From Spirochaetaceae bacterium (GTDB taxonomy: Bacteria > Spirochaetota > Spirochaetia > DSM-27196 > PWMO01), in assembly GCA_007693325.1 (NCBI GenBank), contig REDW01000039.1, positions 1 to 37,459 of the forward strand: DNA of 37,459 bases, read 5' to 3'. Positions 31,280-37,383 of the stretch are shown here, in pieces. The notes beneath the pieces are model-generated. The model had not been told where the DNA came from and ran no database searches. It saw only the letters and a program-made list of their open reading frames with translations. The position numbers and the translations under genes were made by a program. The stretch's first letter is position 1. Every line of letters begins with the position of its first letter.

Positions 31280-31308
31280 AGTATAGCCGCTGGACAGCGT
31301 TATCTGAA
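31280..31308 (-). promoter_or_regulatory. Promoter of the aldo/keto reductase gene
   Basis: On the minus strand TTCAGA, 17 bp, TATACT, 20 bp before the ATG. The -35 box lies in a perfect palindrome. Confidence 0.55.
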
Positions 31309-31316
31309 CCGGTTCA
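31305..31316. promoter_or_regulatory. 12-bp palindrome with central CpG; candidate operator
   Basis: TGAACCGGTTCA is a perfect palindrome overlapping the -35 box of the leftward promoter and about 40 bp upstream of the rightward -10 box. Its CG-centred form fits a LacI-family site, but no regulator is adjacent. Confidence 0.4.
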
Positions 31317-31353: not shown

Positions 31354-31359
31354 TATAAT
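31354..31359 (+). promoter_or_regulatory. -10 box of the four-gene exported module
   Basis: A perfect TATAAT lies 60 nt before the GTG start. A TTGTTT upstream is only 14 bp away, so the -35 contact is weak or helped by an activator. The downstream leader contains a short ATATGC/ATATGT repeat. Confidence 0.5.
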
Positions 31360-31418
31360 CCACGCATATGCATATGTATATGCACTATGAACAGGTAAAG
31401 CGAGAGCGGAGGCGGAAA

Positions 31419-31871
31419 GTGAAACAGGCGGTGGTATTGGGATGTCTGCTGTTGCTGAGCGCGGGGGTTGCCGCGGCGCAGTCAAACGAAGCACTGGATG
31501 AGATTCTGGCGGCGCCTGAGGCAACCTACGGCCAGGCGGCGTACCTGCTGCTGGTCGGTGACGGGAGGATCGAGGAAGACAGCAGTTATGCGCAGGCGGT
31601 GAGTGTGCTCGAGCAGCAGCTGGGAGCGCTGGTGCAGCGCGCAGCAGGAGATGCGCTGACCCTCGGTGAGTTTGCGCTGCTGGTACAGGTCTACCACGAG
31701 CTGCCGCGCGGACTGCTGGGCAGTCTGGTGAGCGCCCCGCGCTACGCGGTGCGCGATCTGCGCTACCTGCGGGTGGTGCAGGGCAGAAGCTATCCCAACA
31801 TGCGGCTGTCCGGTGAGCGCATGCTGCGCATCACAGGCAGGGTGCTGGCGTGGCAGGAAGGTGTGCTGTGA
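31419..31871 (+). CDS. Small secreted protein, first gene of an exported module
   Basis: A 150-residue protein of unknown function. A signal peptide covers the first about 21 residues (VKQAVVLGCLLLLSAGVAAAQS). The mature part is helical and acidic at first (ALDEILAAPEATYGQAAYLL), with a repeated ALVQR/ALLVQVYHEL style, and ends with a basic patch near RYAVRDLRYLRVVQGRSYPN. GTG was chosen because GGAGG lies 6 nt upstream; ATG codons up to 17 codons upstream, 8 nt after TATAAT, would add a basic n-region and remain possible. Its stop overlaps the next start by 4 bp (GTGA), so it is coupled to the beta-barrel-like protein. Confidence 0.78.
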   Translation: MKQAVVLGCLLLLSAGVAAAQSNEALDEILAAPEATYGQAAYLLLVGDGRIEEDSSYAQAVSVLEQQLGALVQRAAGDALTLGEFALLVQVYHELPRGLLGSLVSAPRYAVRDLRYLRVVQGRSYPNMRLSGERMLRITGRVLAWQEGVL

Positions 31872-33139
31872 GGCGCCCGGCAGCGTGTGTGCTGGCGCTA
31901 TTGTTGATAGCCGCCGGCGCGCGAGTGTGGGCACAGCAGGGCGGTGACTGGGGCGTGACGCTTGACAGCGCCACCACGCTGCGCCACAGCGCGGAGCTCG
32001 ATGAGCAGGAGTGGGGGCAGCGCGTACGCGCGGCGCTGTGGGGCGAGCTGTTCTGGCGGTTGGACGGTGGCGGCAGCGCCACGCTGAGTGCCGAGGGCAG
32101 TTACGTCTATTCTGATGATCGCGACTACCTGTTTGACGTTGACCGGCTGCGGGTCTCGAGCCTGCACCCGGGGGTGATCAGCCCGGCTGCGGTGCTGGCC
32201 CTCGATGCCGGCAGGTTTGGCTTCCGCGAGCCCAGCGGGCTGGTGCTGAACCACAGCGCTGACGGGGTGCGTGCAGCGCTGCGGTTTGCGGGTGTGGCGG
32301 TGGAGCTCGGCGGGGCCTACACCGGGCTGCTGCTCAATCCCTCCTCGCAGATCCGCATGACCGCGACCGATCGGGCCGAGGAGGACGATGACGATGAGTA
32401 CTTTGGCCCGAAGCGGCTACTGGGGCAGCTGAATGTGCGCTTTGGCGATCTGCCCGGACGCCAGAGTGTAACCGCGGGAGTGCTGGCGCAGTGGGACCTG
32501 CGCGATGACGATGAGGCGTTTACGCTGAACTCGCAGTACTACACGCTGGCCGGCGCAGGGGCGGTGGCAGCCAATCTGTACCACCGCAGCTTTGTAACGC
32601 TGTCCACCATGCAGGCTGAGGTAGGCGGAGAGTCGGAGTCGGGAACGGCGCTGGCGCTGGGTACCGGCTTACGCTACCTGAGAGAGGATTGGCTGGGATC
32701 GCGGCTGAGCGCGGGATTCCGCTATGCGTCGGGGCAGGGGGATAATCTGGACGGATTTGTCACCATCAATGATCCCGCTACCGGCACGGTGTTCCAGCCG
32801 TGGCTGACCAACCTGATGATCATCAGCGGCGGCTACGCGGTGCGGCCGTGGTTTGGCAACCGCTCGCAGACGCTGAGTAACATCGAGTTCTCCACTGCAC
32901 TGCGTGCGTTCCTGCGCGCCCAGGATGACCAGCCGCTGCAAGGCGGCGGACTGCTGGCCGGGCTGAACCTGGAAGAGGGCAAGCGCTACGCGGGCAGCGA
33001 GTTTGAGTGGGCGATCCGTGCGCGGTTACTGCCCGACCTTGGGGCAGCGCTGACCACGGGGCTGTTTCTGCCGTCAGACGGCGCGGTAGACGCCGAGCCT
33101 GAGTTTCTGGGCCGCCTGGAAGTCTCTGTGAGTTTGTAG
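31868..33139 (+). CDS. Predicted outer-membrane beta-barrel protein
   Basis: A 423-residue exported protein. It has a signal peptide ending ARVWAQ. The mature part is full of alternating hydrophobic/polar strands separated by Asp/Gly turns (for example GGGSATLSAEGSYVYSDDRD, SAGFRYASGQGDN), and it ends in LEVSVSL, a terminal strand of outer-membrane type. Length fits roughly 14-18 strands. GTG was chosen because AGGAAGG is 6 nt upstream and it gives the 4-bp GTGA overlap. The FecR-domain gene follows after 11 bp. It is probably the surface or channel component of the module; no family name is recognised. Confidence 0.8.
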   Translation: MRRPAACVLALLLIAAGARVWAQQGGDWGVTLDSATTLRHSAELDEQEWGQRVRAALWGELFWRLDGGGSATLSAEGSYVYSDDRDYLFDVDRLRVSSLHPGVISPAAVLALDAGRFGFREPSGLVLNHSADGVRAALRFAGVAVELGGAYTGLLLNPSSQIRMTATDRAEEDDDDEYFGPKRLLGQLNVRFGDLPGRQSVTAGVLAQWDLRDDDEAFTLNSQYYTLAGAGAVAANLYHRSFVTLSTMQAEVGGESESGTALALGTGLRYLREDWLGSRLSAGFRYASGQGDNLDGFVTINDPATGTVFQPWLTNLMIISGGYAVRPWFGNRSQTLSNIEFSTALRAFLRAQDDQPLQGGGLLAGLNLEEGKRYAGSEFEWAIRARLLPDLGAALTTGLFLPSDGAVDAEPEFLGRLEVSVSL

Positions 33140-33150
33140 GAGCTGGAAAT

Positions 33151-33834
33151 ATGAACAATCGAATAGTGATTATAGCGCTGGCGCTGCTGCTACTGTTGGC
33201 AGCGGCGGCTGCAGCGCAGCAGAACGCCACGGTGCGCCAGGTCCGCGGCAAGGTGGAGTACCGTCTGGCGCCGGGGGCGGGGTGGCAGACCGCGGCGGTG
33301 GGAACGGAGCTGCCGCTGGGAGCAACGATCTCCACGGGGTTTGGTTCGCGCGCAACGCTTGAGTTTGGCTACACCACGCTGGTGGTGGAGGCGTTGAGCC
33401 GGCTGACGCTGGAAGACCTGGTGGAGCGCGAGACAGCGGTGGACACCGATCTGAGGCTCAACGTAGGACGGGTGCGCGCGGAGGTGCGTGACGCGGCCGG
33501 GCTGGAGCAGAACTTCCGTCTGCGCAGCACGCAGGCAACCGCTGCGGTGCGCGGCACGGAGTTCATCTTTGACGGGGTCAATGTGCAGGTGATATCGGGG
33601 ATAGTGACGATGTTCAACCGCTTCAACCAGTCAAGCACGGTTGGCGGCGGCGAGAAGACCTCGGTGCCCGAGGATGACCCGCCACCAAGCGGCGGCGACT
33701 ACCTGGAACAGCTGCTTGCGGTAATACCCTACGCCCCCGGCAGCGAAGAGCGCGAGACGGGTAGTGGGAGCGGTGGAATCGGCGACAGCGGTACGGGATC
33801 GGTGGAGTTTGAACTGGTGGAACTGCCCTTTTAG
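33151..33834 (+). CDS. Exported FecR-domain protein
   Basis: A 227-residue protein with a signal peptide (first about 22 residues, Leu/Ala-rich, cleavage near AAAQQ) and a FecR domain (PF04773). Typical elements are ATLEFGYTTLVVEALSRLTL, LRLNVGRVRAEV and FRLRSTQATAAVRGTEFIF. After residue 160 a Gly/Ser/Pro/Glu-rich low-complexity tail follows. Classical FecR is a membrane anti-sigma regulator; this one has no anti-sigma N-terminus and no sigma factor nearby. It is of the stand-alone secreted type, possibly a periplasmic scaffold. It lies between the barrel and the lipoprotein genes. Confidence 0.9.
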   Translation: MNNRIVIIALALLLLLAAAAAAQQNATVRQVRGKVEYRLAPGAGWQTAAVGTELPLGATISTGFGSRATLEFGYTTLVVEALSRLTLEDLVERETAVDTDLRLNVGRVRAEVRDAAGLEQNFRLRSTQATAAVRGTEFIFDGVNVQVISGIVTMFNRFNQSSTVGGGEKTSVPEDDPPPSGGDYLEQLLAVIPYAPGSEERETGSGSGGIGDSGTGSVEFELVELPF

Positions 33835-33861
33835 GTTGCCGTGAAAAGTGGAGATACAGAT

Positions 33862-34416
33862 ATGAAATCTATTGATTGGAACATGATACTCAACCCGATG
33901 TTTCGAGCCCGATTTGCTGGAAAAGCCATTGCGTTGACCGTAATGGTGCTGTTCTTGTCGGCTTGTTTCTCACCACTACAGGTCGAAGACGGCGGAGCGA
34001 TATCTTTCCAGATCCCGAATGAGATTGGTGCACAGCAGTGGCCGTTCTACGAGGGCGAAGTTGACCGCGCACTTGTGTTTATCTTTCGCGAGTCGGATCT
34101 GGATATCGAAGGCGAAGGCGATGAGCCAAACGAAGATATCGAGCCAGTACTGATCGGCGGACTCCCCTACCATGAGGCGTCCGTTGGTTCTGATGGTGTT
34201 ATTCGGGTTTCCGGTATTACCGCGGGCAGTGGTTACGTGCTACTGGTCTACCTCTTTGATCCAGACTATGGTGACGAGGAGCCAGTCACCTTTGGGTGGT
34301 CGATGGACATCGCCGCTTACCAAATGGAGGAGTTCATACTCGTGCCATTCAACGTTATTCGTGGCCAGACCACAAGCGGAATCAAGGTGGGAGTCCTTCC
34401 GAGCGTCTTTCAGTAG
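33862..34416 (+). CDS. Lipoprotein, last gene of the exported module
   Basis: A 184-residue protein not matched to a family. A lipobox LSAC (Cys35) follows the hydrophobic IALTVMVLFLSAC, so it should be lipid-anchored. The mature part is very acidic (DIEGEGDEPNEDIEP) with beta-rich segments (RVSGITAGSGYVLLVYLFDP), suggesting an Ig-like or lipocalin-like sandwich. The ATG with GGAG at 8 nt was chosen; an ATG 12 codons later gives a shorter signal peptide, and a GTG 7 codons earlier is also open. Base composition is less GC-rich than upstream. It follows the FecR gene by 27 bp. Confidence 0.78.
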   Translation: MKSIDWNMILNPMFRARFAGKAIALTVMVLFLSACFSPLQVEDGGAISFQIPNEIGAQQWPFYEGEVDRALVFIFRESDLDIEGEGDEPNEDIEPVLIGGLPYHEASVGSDGVIRVSGITAGSGYVLLVYLFDPDYGDEEPVTFGWSMDIAAYQMEEFILVPFNVIRGQTTSGIKVGVLPSVFQ

Positions 34417-34680: not shown

Positions 34681-35673
34681 ATGCAGCAATACCGGGTCAT
34701 CGCCACGCTGGGGCCGGCTACCGAGTCCGAGCTGTTGCGTTCGCGTCTGCTTCACGCGGGCTGCAACGCCTTCCGTCTCAACACCTCTCACATGTCCGCC
34801 GCTGATGTTGCCTCGACGCTGGAGCGTATCGCGCAGTTGGAATGGCCCGAGCGCGGCCGCGCGGGAGCTTCTCCAACGGTTGTGCTGGACCTTCAGGGAA
34901 GCAAATGGCGACTCGGCGATTATCCCGGCGGCACCCTCGCAGCGGGAGATTCGGTCGTTCTGATGCGCGGCACCGAGTCCGATGCTGCCGCAATTCTGCC
35001 GGTACCCCATGGCGATTTCTTTCGCGCCGTCCGCGACTGTTGCGGAGAGATCCGCCTCAACGACGGCCGGGTAATTCTGCGGGTTCAATCGATCCACCAG
35101 GATGAGGTTCGCTGCAGCGTAGAGACCGGAGGCCCGCTGTCGGCCCGTAAAGGCGTAACCGTAGCGGGTACACGCACCCGCACAGAGACACTTGGTGATC
35201 GTGACGCCGAGATCCTGCGGCAGACGCGCGGAGCGGCCGGTGTGGCGTACGCGTTCTCCTACGTGCGCGACGCAGCCGAGATGCGGACGTTCCGCTCGAT
35301 GGTGGACCATGGCGCGGCAGTTATCGCCAAGATCGAACGCGAATCCGCAATCGCTGATGTTGAGGCGATTTCAAACGTCGCCGATGAAGTCTGGCTCTGC
35401 CGCGGGGACCTTGGAGCCGAACTCGGCCTTCTGGAAATGGCGCGGTCGATCCGTCATTTTTCCGGTTCCGTGCCGGAACTCGGCTCACCCTGCCTGCTGG
35501 CGGGCCAGGTGCTGCAGCACATGACCGTCTCACCAACGGCGACCCGCTCGGAGATCACGACGATCTACGACGCGGTTGCCGCGGGCTACGCCGGATTTGT
35601 GCTCTCCGACGAGACCGCTCTCGGGGCCTACCCGGTAGAGAGCTGCCGTACCGCCGCGATGTTCCGGCAGTGA
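34681..35673 (+). CDS. Short pyruvate kinase-like protein lacking the C-terminal domain
   Basis: A 330-residue protein with the pyruvate kinase barrel. It has RVIATLGPATES at the N-terminus, RLNTSH (Arg, Asn and Ser of the ATP/K+ site), LDLQGSKWRLG, a B-domain section EIRLNDGRVI, AKIERESAI (catalytic Lys and Glu), CRGDLGAELG (metal Asp) and PTATRSEITTIYDAVAAGYA followed by LSDETALGAYPVE. Pyruvate kinases are usually about 470 residues; the C-terminal allosteric domain is absent and the chain ends right after the barrel. The catalytic residues appear kept, so it may be active and unregulated or act on another phosphoenol substrate. No Shine-Dalgarno is seen. Confidence 0.82.
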   Translation: MQQYRVIATLGPATESELLRSRLLHAGCNAFRLNTSHMSAADVASTLERIAQLEWPERGRAGASPTVVLDLQGSKWRLGDYPGGTLAAGDSVVLMRGTESDAAAILPVPHGDFFRAVRDCCGEIRLNDGRVILRVQSIHQDEVRCSVETGGPLSARKGVTVAGTRTRTETLGDRDAEILRQTRGAAGVAYAFSYVRDAAEMRTFRSMVDHGAAVIAKIERESAIADVEAISNVADEVWLCRGDLGAELGLLEMARSIRHFSGSVPELGSPCLLAGQVLQHMTVSPTATRSEITTIYDAVAAGYAGFVLSDETALGAYPVESCRTAAMFRQ

Positions 35674-36068: not shown

Positions 36069-36072
36069 CCGG

Positions 36073-37383
36073 TTGAGCCGCAACAAACCGCTGCTGGTGG
36101 TAGGCCATCGGAATCCGGACACCGACTCCATCTGCGCCGCTATCTCGTACGCGCGCTACAAGACGGAGATCGCCGCTGTGGACGCCGTTGCATGCCGCGC
36201 CGGAAGCATCAACCGCCAGACCCGCTTTGCGCTGGACGCCTTCGGCGCGGACGATCCGCGGTTGCTCGCAGATGTACTGCCGCGGCTGTCAGACATCATG
36301 ATCCAGCGTCAGGACCTGCTTCTGGTCGATAGCGGCAGTCCGCTTGCCGAGGCGTACCGCATCATCGTCGATAGACGGTTCTCGTTCATGCCGGTGGTGG
36401 ACGAGGCCGGAATCTGCGTCGGCAGGGTTACCGCAGTCGGCCTGGCGGCGCTGCTTGACCGTGAAGGACCTCCGATTGGCGAGCTTCTCGCGATGCCCGT
36501 CGATAGCTTTCTTGAGCCGGTTGGACCAACGTTCCCCACGTCGTTGCCTATCCGCGACGCCGAGCTCACCGTGAACCGGTCCAACGAGGGCGGGTTCATT
36601 GTAACAGACGAGCGCGGCGCGGTTGCCGGCATCGTGACGCGGATGAACTTCATGACTGACTCGCGCTTCCGTGTCGCCCTGGTGGACCACAACGAGTCCT
36701 CGCAGTCCGTCGACGGCATAGAGCACGCTCACATCGAGGAAATCGTGGACCATCACCGGATCGGAATCGGACGCACCAACACGCCGATCACCGTCATCAA
36801 CCACGTGGTTGGATCAACCTGCACGATTGTGGCTCGCATGTATCGCGAGGCCGGTGTCTCCCCGCCGCCGGCCCTGGCCGGTCTGATGCTGTCCGGCGTG
36901 CTCTCCGACACCGTTGTGCTGAACTCGCCGACCACGACCGACACTGACCGCAGCGTAGCCGAGTGGCTTGGCGGCATCGCGGAGCTGGACCCCGTTGAGT
37001 ACGGGCACGCTATGTTCGCGGCCGGTAGCGGCCTCGCCGAACTGTCCGCGGACGCGATCATCGGTCAGGACCAGAAAACCTACGACGAACGCGGGCGACG
37101 CTTCAGCGTCAGCCAGTTTGAGATGGTTGGTTTCGAGGGGTTCTGGCAGCGACGCGTCGAGCTGGCTGAGGCGCTCGCCGCGCGGCGCGCCGCGGACGAC
37201 CTCTACCTGTCAGCGCTGATGCTCACCGACATCACCACCAGCACAACGCTTCTGCAGATCAGCGGTCCGCCGCTGCTGCTGGACCGTCTGGCCTTTCCGC
37301 AGCCGGCTGACGGTGTCTTTGAAATGCGCGGCGTTCTCAGCCGCAAGAAGCAGGTTCTGCCGTTTCTGCTCGAGTTACTGTAG
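36073..37383 (+). CDS. CBS-domain family II (manganese) inorganic pyrophosphatase
   Basis: Hydrolyses pyrophosphate to phosphate, with activity set by nucleotides bound to CBS domains. The 436 residues begin with the DHH-type site GHRNPDTDSI (His12, Asp16, Asp18). Two CBS domains follow (about 75-195), then VDHNE (Asp205, His206), VDHHRIGIGRT (Asp226, His227, His228) and the C-terminal substrate motif SRKKQV. No DRTGG domain lies between the CBS repeats, unlike some clostridial enzymes. The TTG start was chosen because the first beta-strand (PLLVVGH) needs it and no ATG or GTG fits; earlier in-frame codons would overlap the cupin gene. Translation is probably coupled to the cupin. Confidence 0.9.
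   Translation: MSRNKPLLVVGHRNPDTDSICAAISYARYKTEIAAVDAVACRAGSINRQTRFALDAFGADDPRLLADVLPRLSDIMIQRQDLLLVDSGSPLAEAYRIIVDRRFSFMPVVDEAGICVGRVTAVGLAALLDREGPPIGELLAMPVDSFLEPVGPTFPTSLPIRDAELTVNRSNEGGFIVTDERGAVAGIVTRMNFMTDSRFRVALVDHNESSQSVDGIEHAHIEEIVDHHRIGIGRTNTPITVINHVVGSTCTIVARMYREAGVSPPPALAGLMLSGVLSDTVVLNSPTTTDTDRSVAEWLGGIAELDPVEYGHAMFAAGSGLAELSADAIIGQDQKTYDERGRRFSVSQFEMVGFEGFWQRRVELAEALAARRAADDLYLSALMLTDITTSTTLLQISGPPLLLDRLAFPQPADGVFEMRGVLSRKKQVLPFLLELL

Follow-up and report, generated by a model that had tools for sequence, protein, structure and literature searches.

Little is understood of how the loose outer membrane of spirochaetes is held to the cell wall, and of how these bacteria sense what lies outside it. 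Both questions are touched by four tightly packed genes for exported proteins (g1-g2-g3-g4) at positions 31419-34416, plus strand, of a 37,459-nt contig from a Spirochaetaceae bacterium (REDW01000039.1, assembly GCA_007693325.1), here called the window over its full length. Our analysis suggests that the four genes encode an outer-membrane channel that is tethered to the cell wall and accompanied by a variable lipoprotein, probably connected via a FecR-domain protein to a CHASE2 nucleotide cyclase, and we give this reading a probability of about 0.5. The features concerned are:

31354..31359, plus strand: TATAAT, possible -10 element of the module, from the sequence
31419..31871, plus strand: g1, signal peptide and cryptic S-layer-homology (SLH)-like domain, mature protein of ~129 amino acids (aa), putative wall tether
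31868..33139, plus strand: g2, predicted 18-stranded outer-membrane beta-barrel with an AlgE/OprD-like fold
33151..33834, plus strand: g3, periplasmic FecR-domain protein with FecR domain, Ser/Gly/Glu-rich linker and conserved C-terminal beta-strand
33862..34416, plus strand: g4, lipoprotein with lipobox FLSAC (from the translation), variable member of the module

A reading of the letters made before this work (the sequence-only reading) had described four consecutive exported genes, coupled by a GTGA overlap and by gaps of 11 and 27 nt, and this description holds. The translations show signal peptides in g1, g2 and g3 and the lipobox FLSAC in g4. GTGA at 31868-31871 is common to g1 and g2, g3 begins 11 nt after g2, and g4 would begin 27 nt after g3 if its start is ATG 33862, which is preceded by the Shine-Dalgarno sequence GGAG. 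The open reading frame (ORF) of g1 opens at ATG 31368, but GTG 31419 is most likely the start, because the Shine-Dalgarno sequence GGAGG precedes it.

Only one Pfam match was obtained for the four window proteins, FecR (PF04773) in g3 (4.4e-8, residues 59-152), while g1, g2 and g4 have none. Against NCBIfam, g3 weakly matches the leptospiral proteins Lsa33 and LipL45, and g2 weakly matches an outer-membrane barrel domain. The module nevertheless occurs throughout the phylum, although three of its four window proteins are without a Pfam match.

Five close g3-type FecR paralogues are found in the source genome, on contigs C148 (the window), C31, C85, C114 and C68. Each has a g2 paralogue directly upstream, and all five loci are g2-g3-g4 copies. 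A sixth, more distant g1-g2-g3 locus lies on C21. Module members are present in all seven genomes examined of the source family, and in a g3 tree the five copies and those of congeners form five orthologous groups with ultrafast-bootstrap values of 96-100. Two further observations concern the source genome: a frameshift or an assembly error divides g2 of the C68 copy between two frames (L039 8820-10153, G000:C68), and a FecR match in a 787-aa frame on C45 belongs to another type, namely a lipoprotein whose long C-terminal part is repeat-like.

Our systematic sampling covers Spirochaetota; most records are metagenome assemblies, and genes in related loci were called with a simple ORF picker. 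Among the loci examined, g2 lies directly upstream of 119 of 123 FecR matches to the g3 profile, and 92 of these also have g1, 17 of the g2-bearing loci being too close to a contig edge for g1 to be judged; about 12 contigs entered the set twice with different locus numbers, which makes the counts slightly too high and leaves the proportions unaffected. The median distance from the g1 stop to the longest-ORF start of g2 is -3 nt (n=82), and that from the g2 stop to the g3 start is 13 nt (n=104). Since these short spacings recur across related loci, the coupling of the genes is not due to chance. The genes thus stay together in spirochaetes and are not scattered, and the proposal of a conserved envelope module of barrel, FecR protein and lipoprotein is borne out by the order kept across spirochaete loci. 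Loci from outside the source class have the order lipoprotein, FecR, g1, g2, and a cyclase follows or flanks them in three of five cases. When 84,980 prokaryote species were scanned with one genome each, 351 relatives could be confirmed, of which the 80 best are all from spirochaetes. Among 392 spirochaete genomes, g1 is found in 148, g2 in 180 and both in 139. In one large family (f7), which is probably Treponemataceae, most genomes have the module as a single copy. In the literature on FecR with spirochaetes or Treponema, we found no paper that describes this module.

What does g1 do in this arrangement? Single chains of g1 and g2 were modeled with AlphaFold2 (AF2, alignment-based). The g1 model has a mean predicted local distance difference test score (pLDDT) of 95.2. 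In a Foldseek search of the PDB, ranks 1-10 are all SLH domains (Sap, SpaA) with probabilities of 0.60-1.00, and no non-SLH match exceeds 0.07. Independently, when SLH repeats of canonical spirochaete proteins were aligned to g1 with hhalign, two tandem repeats were placed at residues 53-98 and 110-147, where they match the helices of the model in register. Their scores of 21.5 and 20.7 compare with 10.2 (standard deviation 2.2) for column-shuffled profiles, and none of 300 shuffles reaches them. A sequence search of g1 against PDB chains gave no SLH match. As judged from model and profile, g1 is a divergent, cryptic SLH-repeat protein. The "small secreted partner" of the sequence-only reading is thus exported as proposed, but it is not generic and appears to be of the SLH type.

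Fusions suggest where g1 resides and what it may bind. In one relative (L248), g1 and g2 are fused in frame in a protein of 706 aa, with g1 at 71-211, g2 at 313-705 and a Pro-rich linker between them. Because g1 is fused N-terminally to g2, and barrels with an even number of strands have their N-terminus in the periplasm, g1 is expected there. Eight proteins from several genomes combine g1 with a C-terminal OmpA domain of the peptidoglycan-binding type (PF00691, E 3e-14 to 7e-21). These fusions point indirectly to peptidoglycan or a wall polymer as the putative ligand of g1. Canonical SLH proteins standing in for g1 were considered and rejected, as canonical SLH is found in only 14 of 392 spirochaete genomes.

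Other architectures were seen. In L247 (3545-5245), g1 is fused to a repeat-rich, Gly/Asn-rich C-terminal region. In three loci (L163 2880-3848, L144 10723-11856 and L149 10660-11703), g1 is encoded on the strand opposite to g2-g3 and has a long, helical-looking extension at its C-terminus. The SLH-porin OmpM, for comparison, is trimeric and has a coiled-coil stalk. Small proteins with one canonical SLH repeat each occur in other spirochaete classes (L220, L221, L224, L225, L230 and L231); they also have a stretch that looks helical and a hydrophobic segment at the C-terminus, and their neighbor is a long exported protein.

The g2 model (pLDDT 95.1) consists of 18 long strands. Foldseek places AlgE at ranks 1-17 (E=5.6e-19, template-modeling score (TM) 0.70), followed by OprD/Occ channels and MOMP, while a sequence search against the PDB gave no match. 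On the strength of the model, g2 is predicted to be an 18-stranded channel of the AlgE/OprD type, and the fold suggests channel activity or transport.

The ranking of AlgE, together with weak matches to Pfam Alginate_exp (PF13372) in two of 17 g2 relatives (best 4.2e-4; none for the window g2), would fit an AlgE-like polysaccharide export channel regulated by the cyclase. We consider this very unlikely: no polysaccharide synthase, AlgK/AlgX-like protein or polymer-modifying family recurs beside the modules, where a possible glycosyltransferase of 292 aa at five loci is the only candidate, and five copies per genome would be odd. The OprD/Occ channels among the best folds suggest instead a substrate-specific uptake porin that works with a surface-binding lipoprotein, in a SusCD-like logic with an OprD-type barrel, where g1 would only align the porin with the wall and FecR would be structural. 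The diversity of g4 fits ligand specificity, and OmpM, the nearest SLH-porin, is both a tether and a nutrient channel (PMC10628300). However, uptake leaves the conservation of FecR and the linkage to a CHASE2 cyclase unexplained, and module neighborhoods hold no consistently adjacent transporter or catabolic genes, so that we regard it as rather improbable.

The possible glycosyltransferase adjoins modules at L036 5218-6096, L194 6869-7798, L195 11128-12006, L135 and L173; its likeness was noted by eye, and it has no Pfam match. Two other families of exported proteins recur near modules: one of ~344 aa in 16 loci (e.g. L098 2745-3836 and L100 6084-7187), whose tested member is without a Pfam match, and small proteins of ~190 aa, often paired and also without a Pfam match, beside the module in seven loci (L128 7545-8189, L110 7025-7603, L038 3689-4787 and related loci).

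The FecR protein g3 carries a signal peptide and the FecR domain, with no second Pfam domain, and a sequence search against the PDB gave no match. It had been described as FecR fused to a low-complexity tail. The linker is indeed there, but the tail ends in a conserved beta-strand: among 96 non-redundant homologues, 79% end in an alternating hydrophobic strand, compared with 8% in shuffles, and 42% have Trp within the last 14 residues, compared with 12%.

A FecR domain could indicate classical signaling from a TonB receptor through FecR to an extracytoplasmic function (ECF) sigma factor. As the sequence-only reading had remarked for this locus, neither a sigma factor nor a TonB-dependent receptor is present, and none was found beside the modules. 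Furthermore, FecR of the Fec type has a cytoplasmic anti-sigma part, a transmembrane helix and a receptor-binding C-terminus, whereas g3 has a cleavable signal peptide, PF04773 as its only domain, and a linker followed by the terminal strand. Fec-type signaling is contradicted by the gene content, and we reject it.

An ORF with a lipobox lies directly downstream of 81 of 114 non-edge FecR matches. Two linkage groups hold 51 and 13 of 71 such lipoproteins, and the mature lengths range from 106 to 618 residues. Lcl_C, GLUG, NHL or DUF5018/5074 domains occur in a few of these proteins. Between the window and its orthologous copy in the congener G006, identity is 73% for g1, 83% for g2, 83% for g3 and 27% for g4; in the other orthologous groups, g4 is conserved just somewhat less than g1-g3. 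The lipoprotein is the variable part of the module, and it may be exposed at the surface.

These properties raise the possibility of a machine for lipoprotein export or surface display, in which the barrel would move its cognate g4 to the surface with FecR as chaperone or adaptor and g1 as wall anchor. Each paralogue group has its own lipoprotein type, encoded 3' of barrel and FecR, some g4 proteins have domains that are typical of exposed proteins (Lcl_C, GLUG or NHL), and the free terminal strand of FecR could cap the lipoprotein. The barrel, however, resembles AlgE and OprD channels and not Slam-type or Omp85 translocons; Slam itself is a barrel with a TPR domain, while g2 has no Pfam match. 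Under a strict lipobox rule, 33 of 114 modules have no adjacent lipoprotein. A donor-strand arrangement, with the C-terminal strand of g3 resembling the N-terminal strand of its cognate g4, was rejected, as no locus-specific similarity was found (p=0.33). An export machine thus appears unlikely.

A further component is encoded near many modules. A protein of ~900 aa with CHASE2 and class III nucleotide cyclase domains lies within 3.5 kb of 42 of the 123 FecR matches, mostly in divergent orientation. The CHASE2 cyclase is a recurrent fifth member of the module, near about one third of the copies. It is absent from the window itself. In every one of the seven family genomes, a single long match to this module-type cyclase is found, covering 659-903 of 903 positions, where the short matches are those at contig ends. 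In the source genome, it covers all 903 positions at G000:C18:13497-16208, away from the modules and hence in trans, and Pfam finds both domains in it; the remaining CHASE2 proteins match just its C-terminal half. In one congener (L240), the module-type cyclase is divergent from an orphan g1. CHASE2 also tends to occur together with the module: of the 189 spirochaete genomes that have g1 or g2, 186 have CHASE2, and of the 134 that lack CHASE2, 131 have neither gene, in a test that ignores phylogeny.

From the computed gene set, phylum-wide co-conservation, predicted folds, fusions, cyclase linkage and lipoprotein divergence, we propose that the module forms a multi-copy trans-envelope assembly of spirochaetes. 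The 18-stranded g2 would be its outer-membrane channel, and g1 would dock on g2 and tie it to peptidoglycan or a wall polymer, the two together forming a split version of the OmpM/SlpA design. The FecR protein would be soluble in the periplasm, its C-terminal linker and strand probably pairing with the barrel or the lipoprotein. As a diversifying outer-membrane lipoprotein, g4 may lend the individual copies distinct ligand or surface specificities. FecR would probably contact and serve as input for the inner-membrane module-type CHASE2 cyclase, which lies beside the module in many species and is encoded once per genome, in trans, in the source family. The state of the outer-membrane complex would then be reported as a cyclic nucleotide. 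A more specific version, which we hold only tentatively, is a trans-envelope sensor in which several paralogous outer-membrane heads with interchangeable lipoproteins signal through FecR to one shared CHASE2 cyclase and its cyclic nucleotide. That the signal conveys what state the outer surface is in, or what it contacts, is an equally tentative suggestion.

Several observations weigh against a wall-tethered channel that reports to the cyclase. The best Foldseek E-value for g1 is just 0.036 with a TM of ~0.5, and no member of the g1 family matches Pfam SLH (PF00395) even at E<=10. The Arg of the ITRAE motif of canonical SLH domains is not conserved in g1, whose consensus at this site is I-T-L-G-E and L-S-G-E, with Leu/Phe or Gly at the Arg position; the ligand of g1 may therefore differ, or binding may have been lost. 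Upstream same-strand g1 is missing from ten non-edge module copies, among them that on C68, which leaves g1 in four of the five copies of the source genome. CHASE2 proteins are also common in spirochaetes without the module (72 genomes), and the co-occurrence of CHASE2 with g1 or g2 is not corrected for phylogeny. Finally, no enrichment of CRP-like sites is seen upstream of the modules.

Around the module in the window, the letters TATAAT of the -10 box named in the sequence-only reading lie at 31354-31359, but a sigma-70 scan found no promoter with an acceptable -35 match there, and a module promoter at this position is therefore only possible. Upstream of it, at 31305-31316, lies a perfect palindrome, TGAACCGGTTCA, with no second exact copy in the window. 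It was rejected as a shared operator, as it is not present upstream of the other module copies inspected. Downstream of the module, 34681-35673 encodes a pyruvate kinase of 330 aa, of which Pfam matches just the barrel domain (PF00224). A DHH/CBS protein ends the series of genes in the window (36070-37383) and is 93.6% identical to a congener protein (L043 2-1360), which sits just upstream of the congener's C31-type module. The contig of the window may thus run on into the C31 module, and the two modules may be neighbors.

The earlier interpretation of the locus is partly supported by these results, and its statement that the gene set matches no known system stands: we could match the module to none of the described systems, although the barrel fold itself is of the AlgE/OprD type. 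The likeness to AlgE and OprD extends to fold and 18 strands, but identity is ~15%, no alginate or polysaccharide genes are nearby, and g2 has SLH-type and FecR partners. We take spirochaetes to belong to the Gracilicutes, and the module would then bring an OmpM-like combination of SLH part and barrel into a group that is said to lack OmpM. According to the literature, OmpM consists of a barrel with an attached SLH domain, anchors the outer membrane, lets nutrients in and is entirely missing from Gracilicutes (PMC10628300). Like OmpM, SlpA and Mep45, the SLH-porins of Negativicutes, Deinococcus and other Terrabacteria, the module combines an SLH-type periplasmic domain with an outer-membrane barrel (PMC10628300). 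The OmpM order, N-terminal SLH and C-terminal barrel in one chain, is found in the relative L248, whereas in the window and most module loci the SLH-like part and the barrel are separate genes. The predicted 18 strands of g2 compare with 16 in VpOmpM1 and 30 in SlpA. The module further differs in its Pfam-undetectable SLH repeats without the ITRAE Arg, in its additional FecR protein, lipoprotein and cyclase, and in its host phylum, Spirochaetota.

The pairing of FecR with CHASE2 is known elsewhere, from Burkholderiales, where a LysM/FecR protein goes with a CHASE2 kinase, and from a cyclic AMP (cAMP) circuit in Sinorhizobium meliloti (PMC5192318, PMC5498481). The BiofilmReg operon of Burkholderiales encodes the LysM/FecR protein and a CHASE2 histidine kinase (PMC5192318). 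Like the module, such operons co-encode a peptidoglycan-binding part (LysM there, putatively the SLH-like protein here), FecR and a CHASE2 sensor. In the module, however, the wall-binding and FecR parts are on separate proteins, the output would be a nucleotide cyclase and not a kinase, and a barrel and a lipoprotein are added. In S. meliloti, a CHASE2 cyclase, CyaD1, and a FecR protein, SMc02177, a target of the cAMP regulator Clr, share one signaling context (PMC5498481), as is proposed for the module. Their relation is transcriptional, and no operon of a barrel with an SLH-type anchor is described there. With the spirochaete module, the pairing of FecR and CHASE2 acquires a physical context, and the shared cyclase identified here is open to direct tests.

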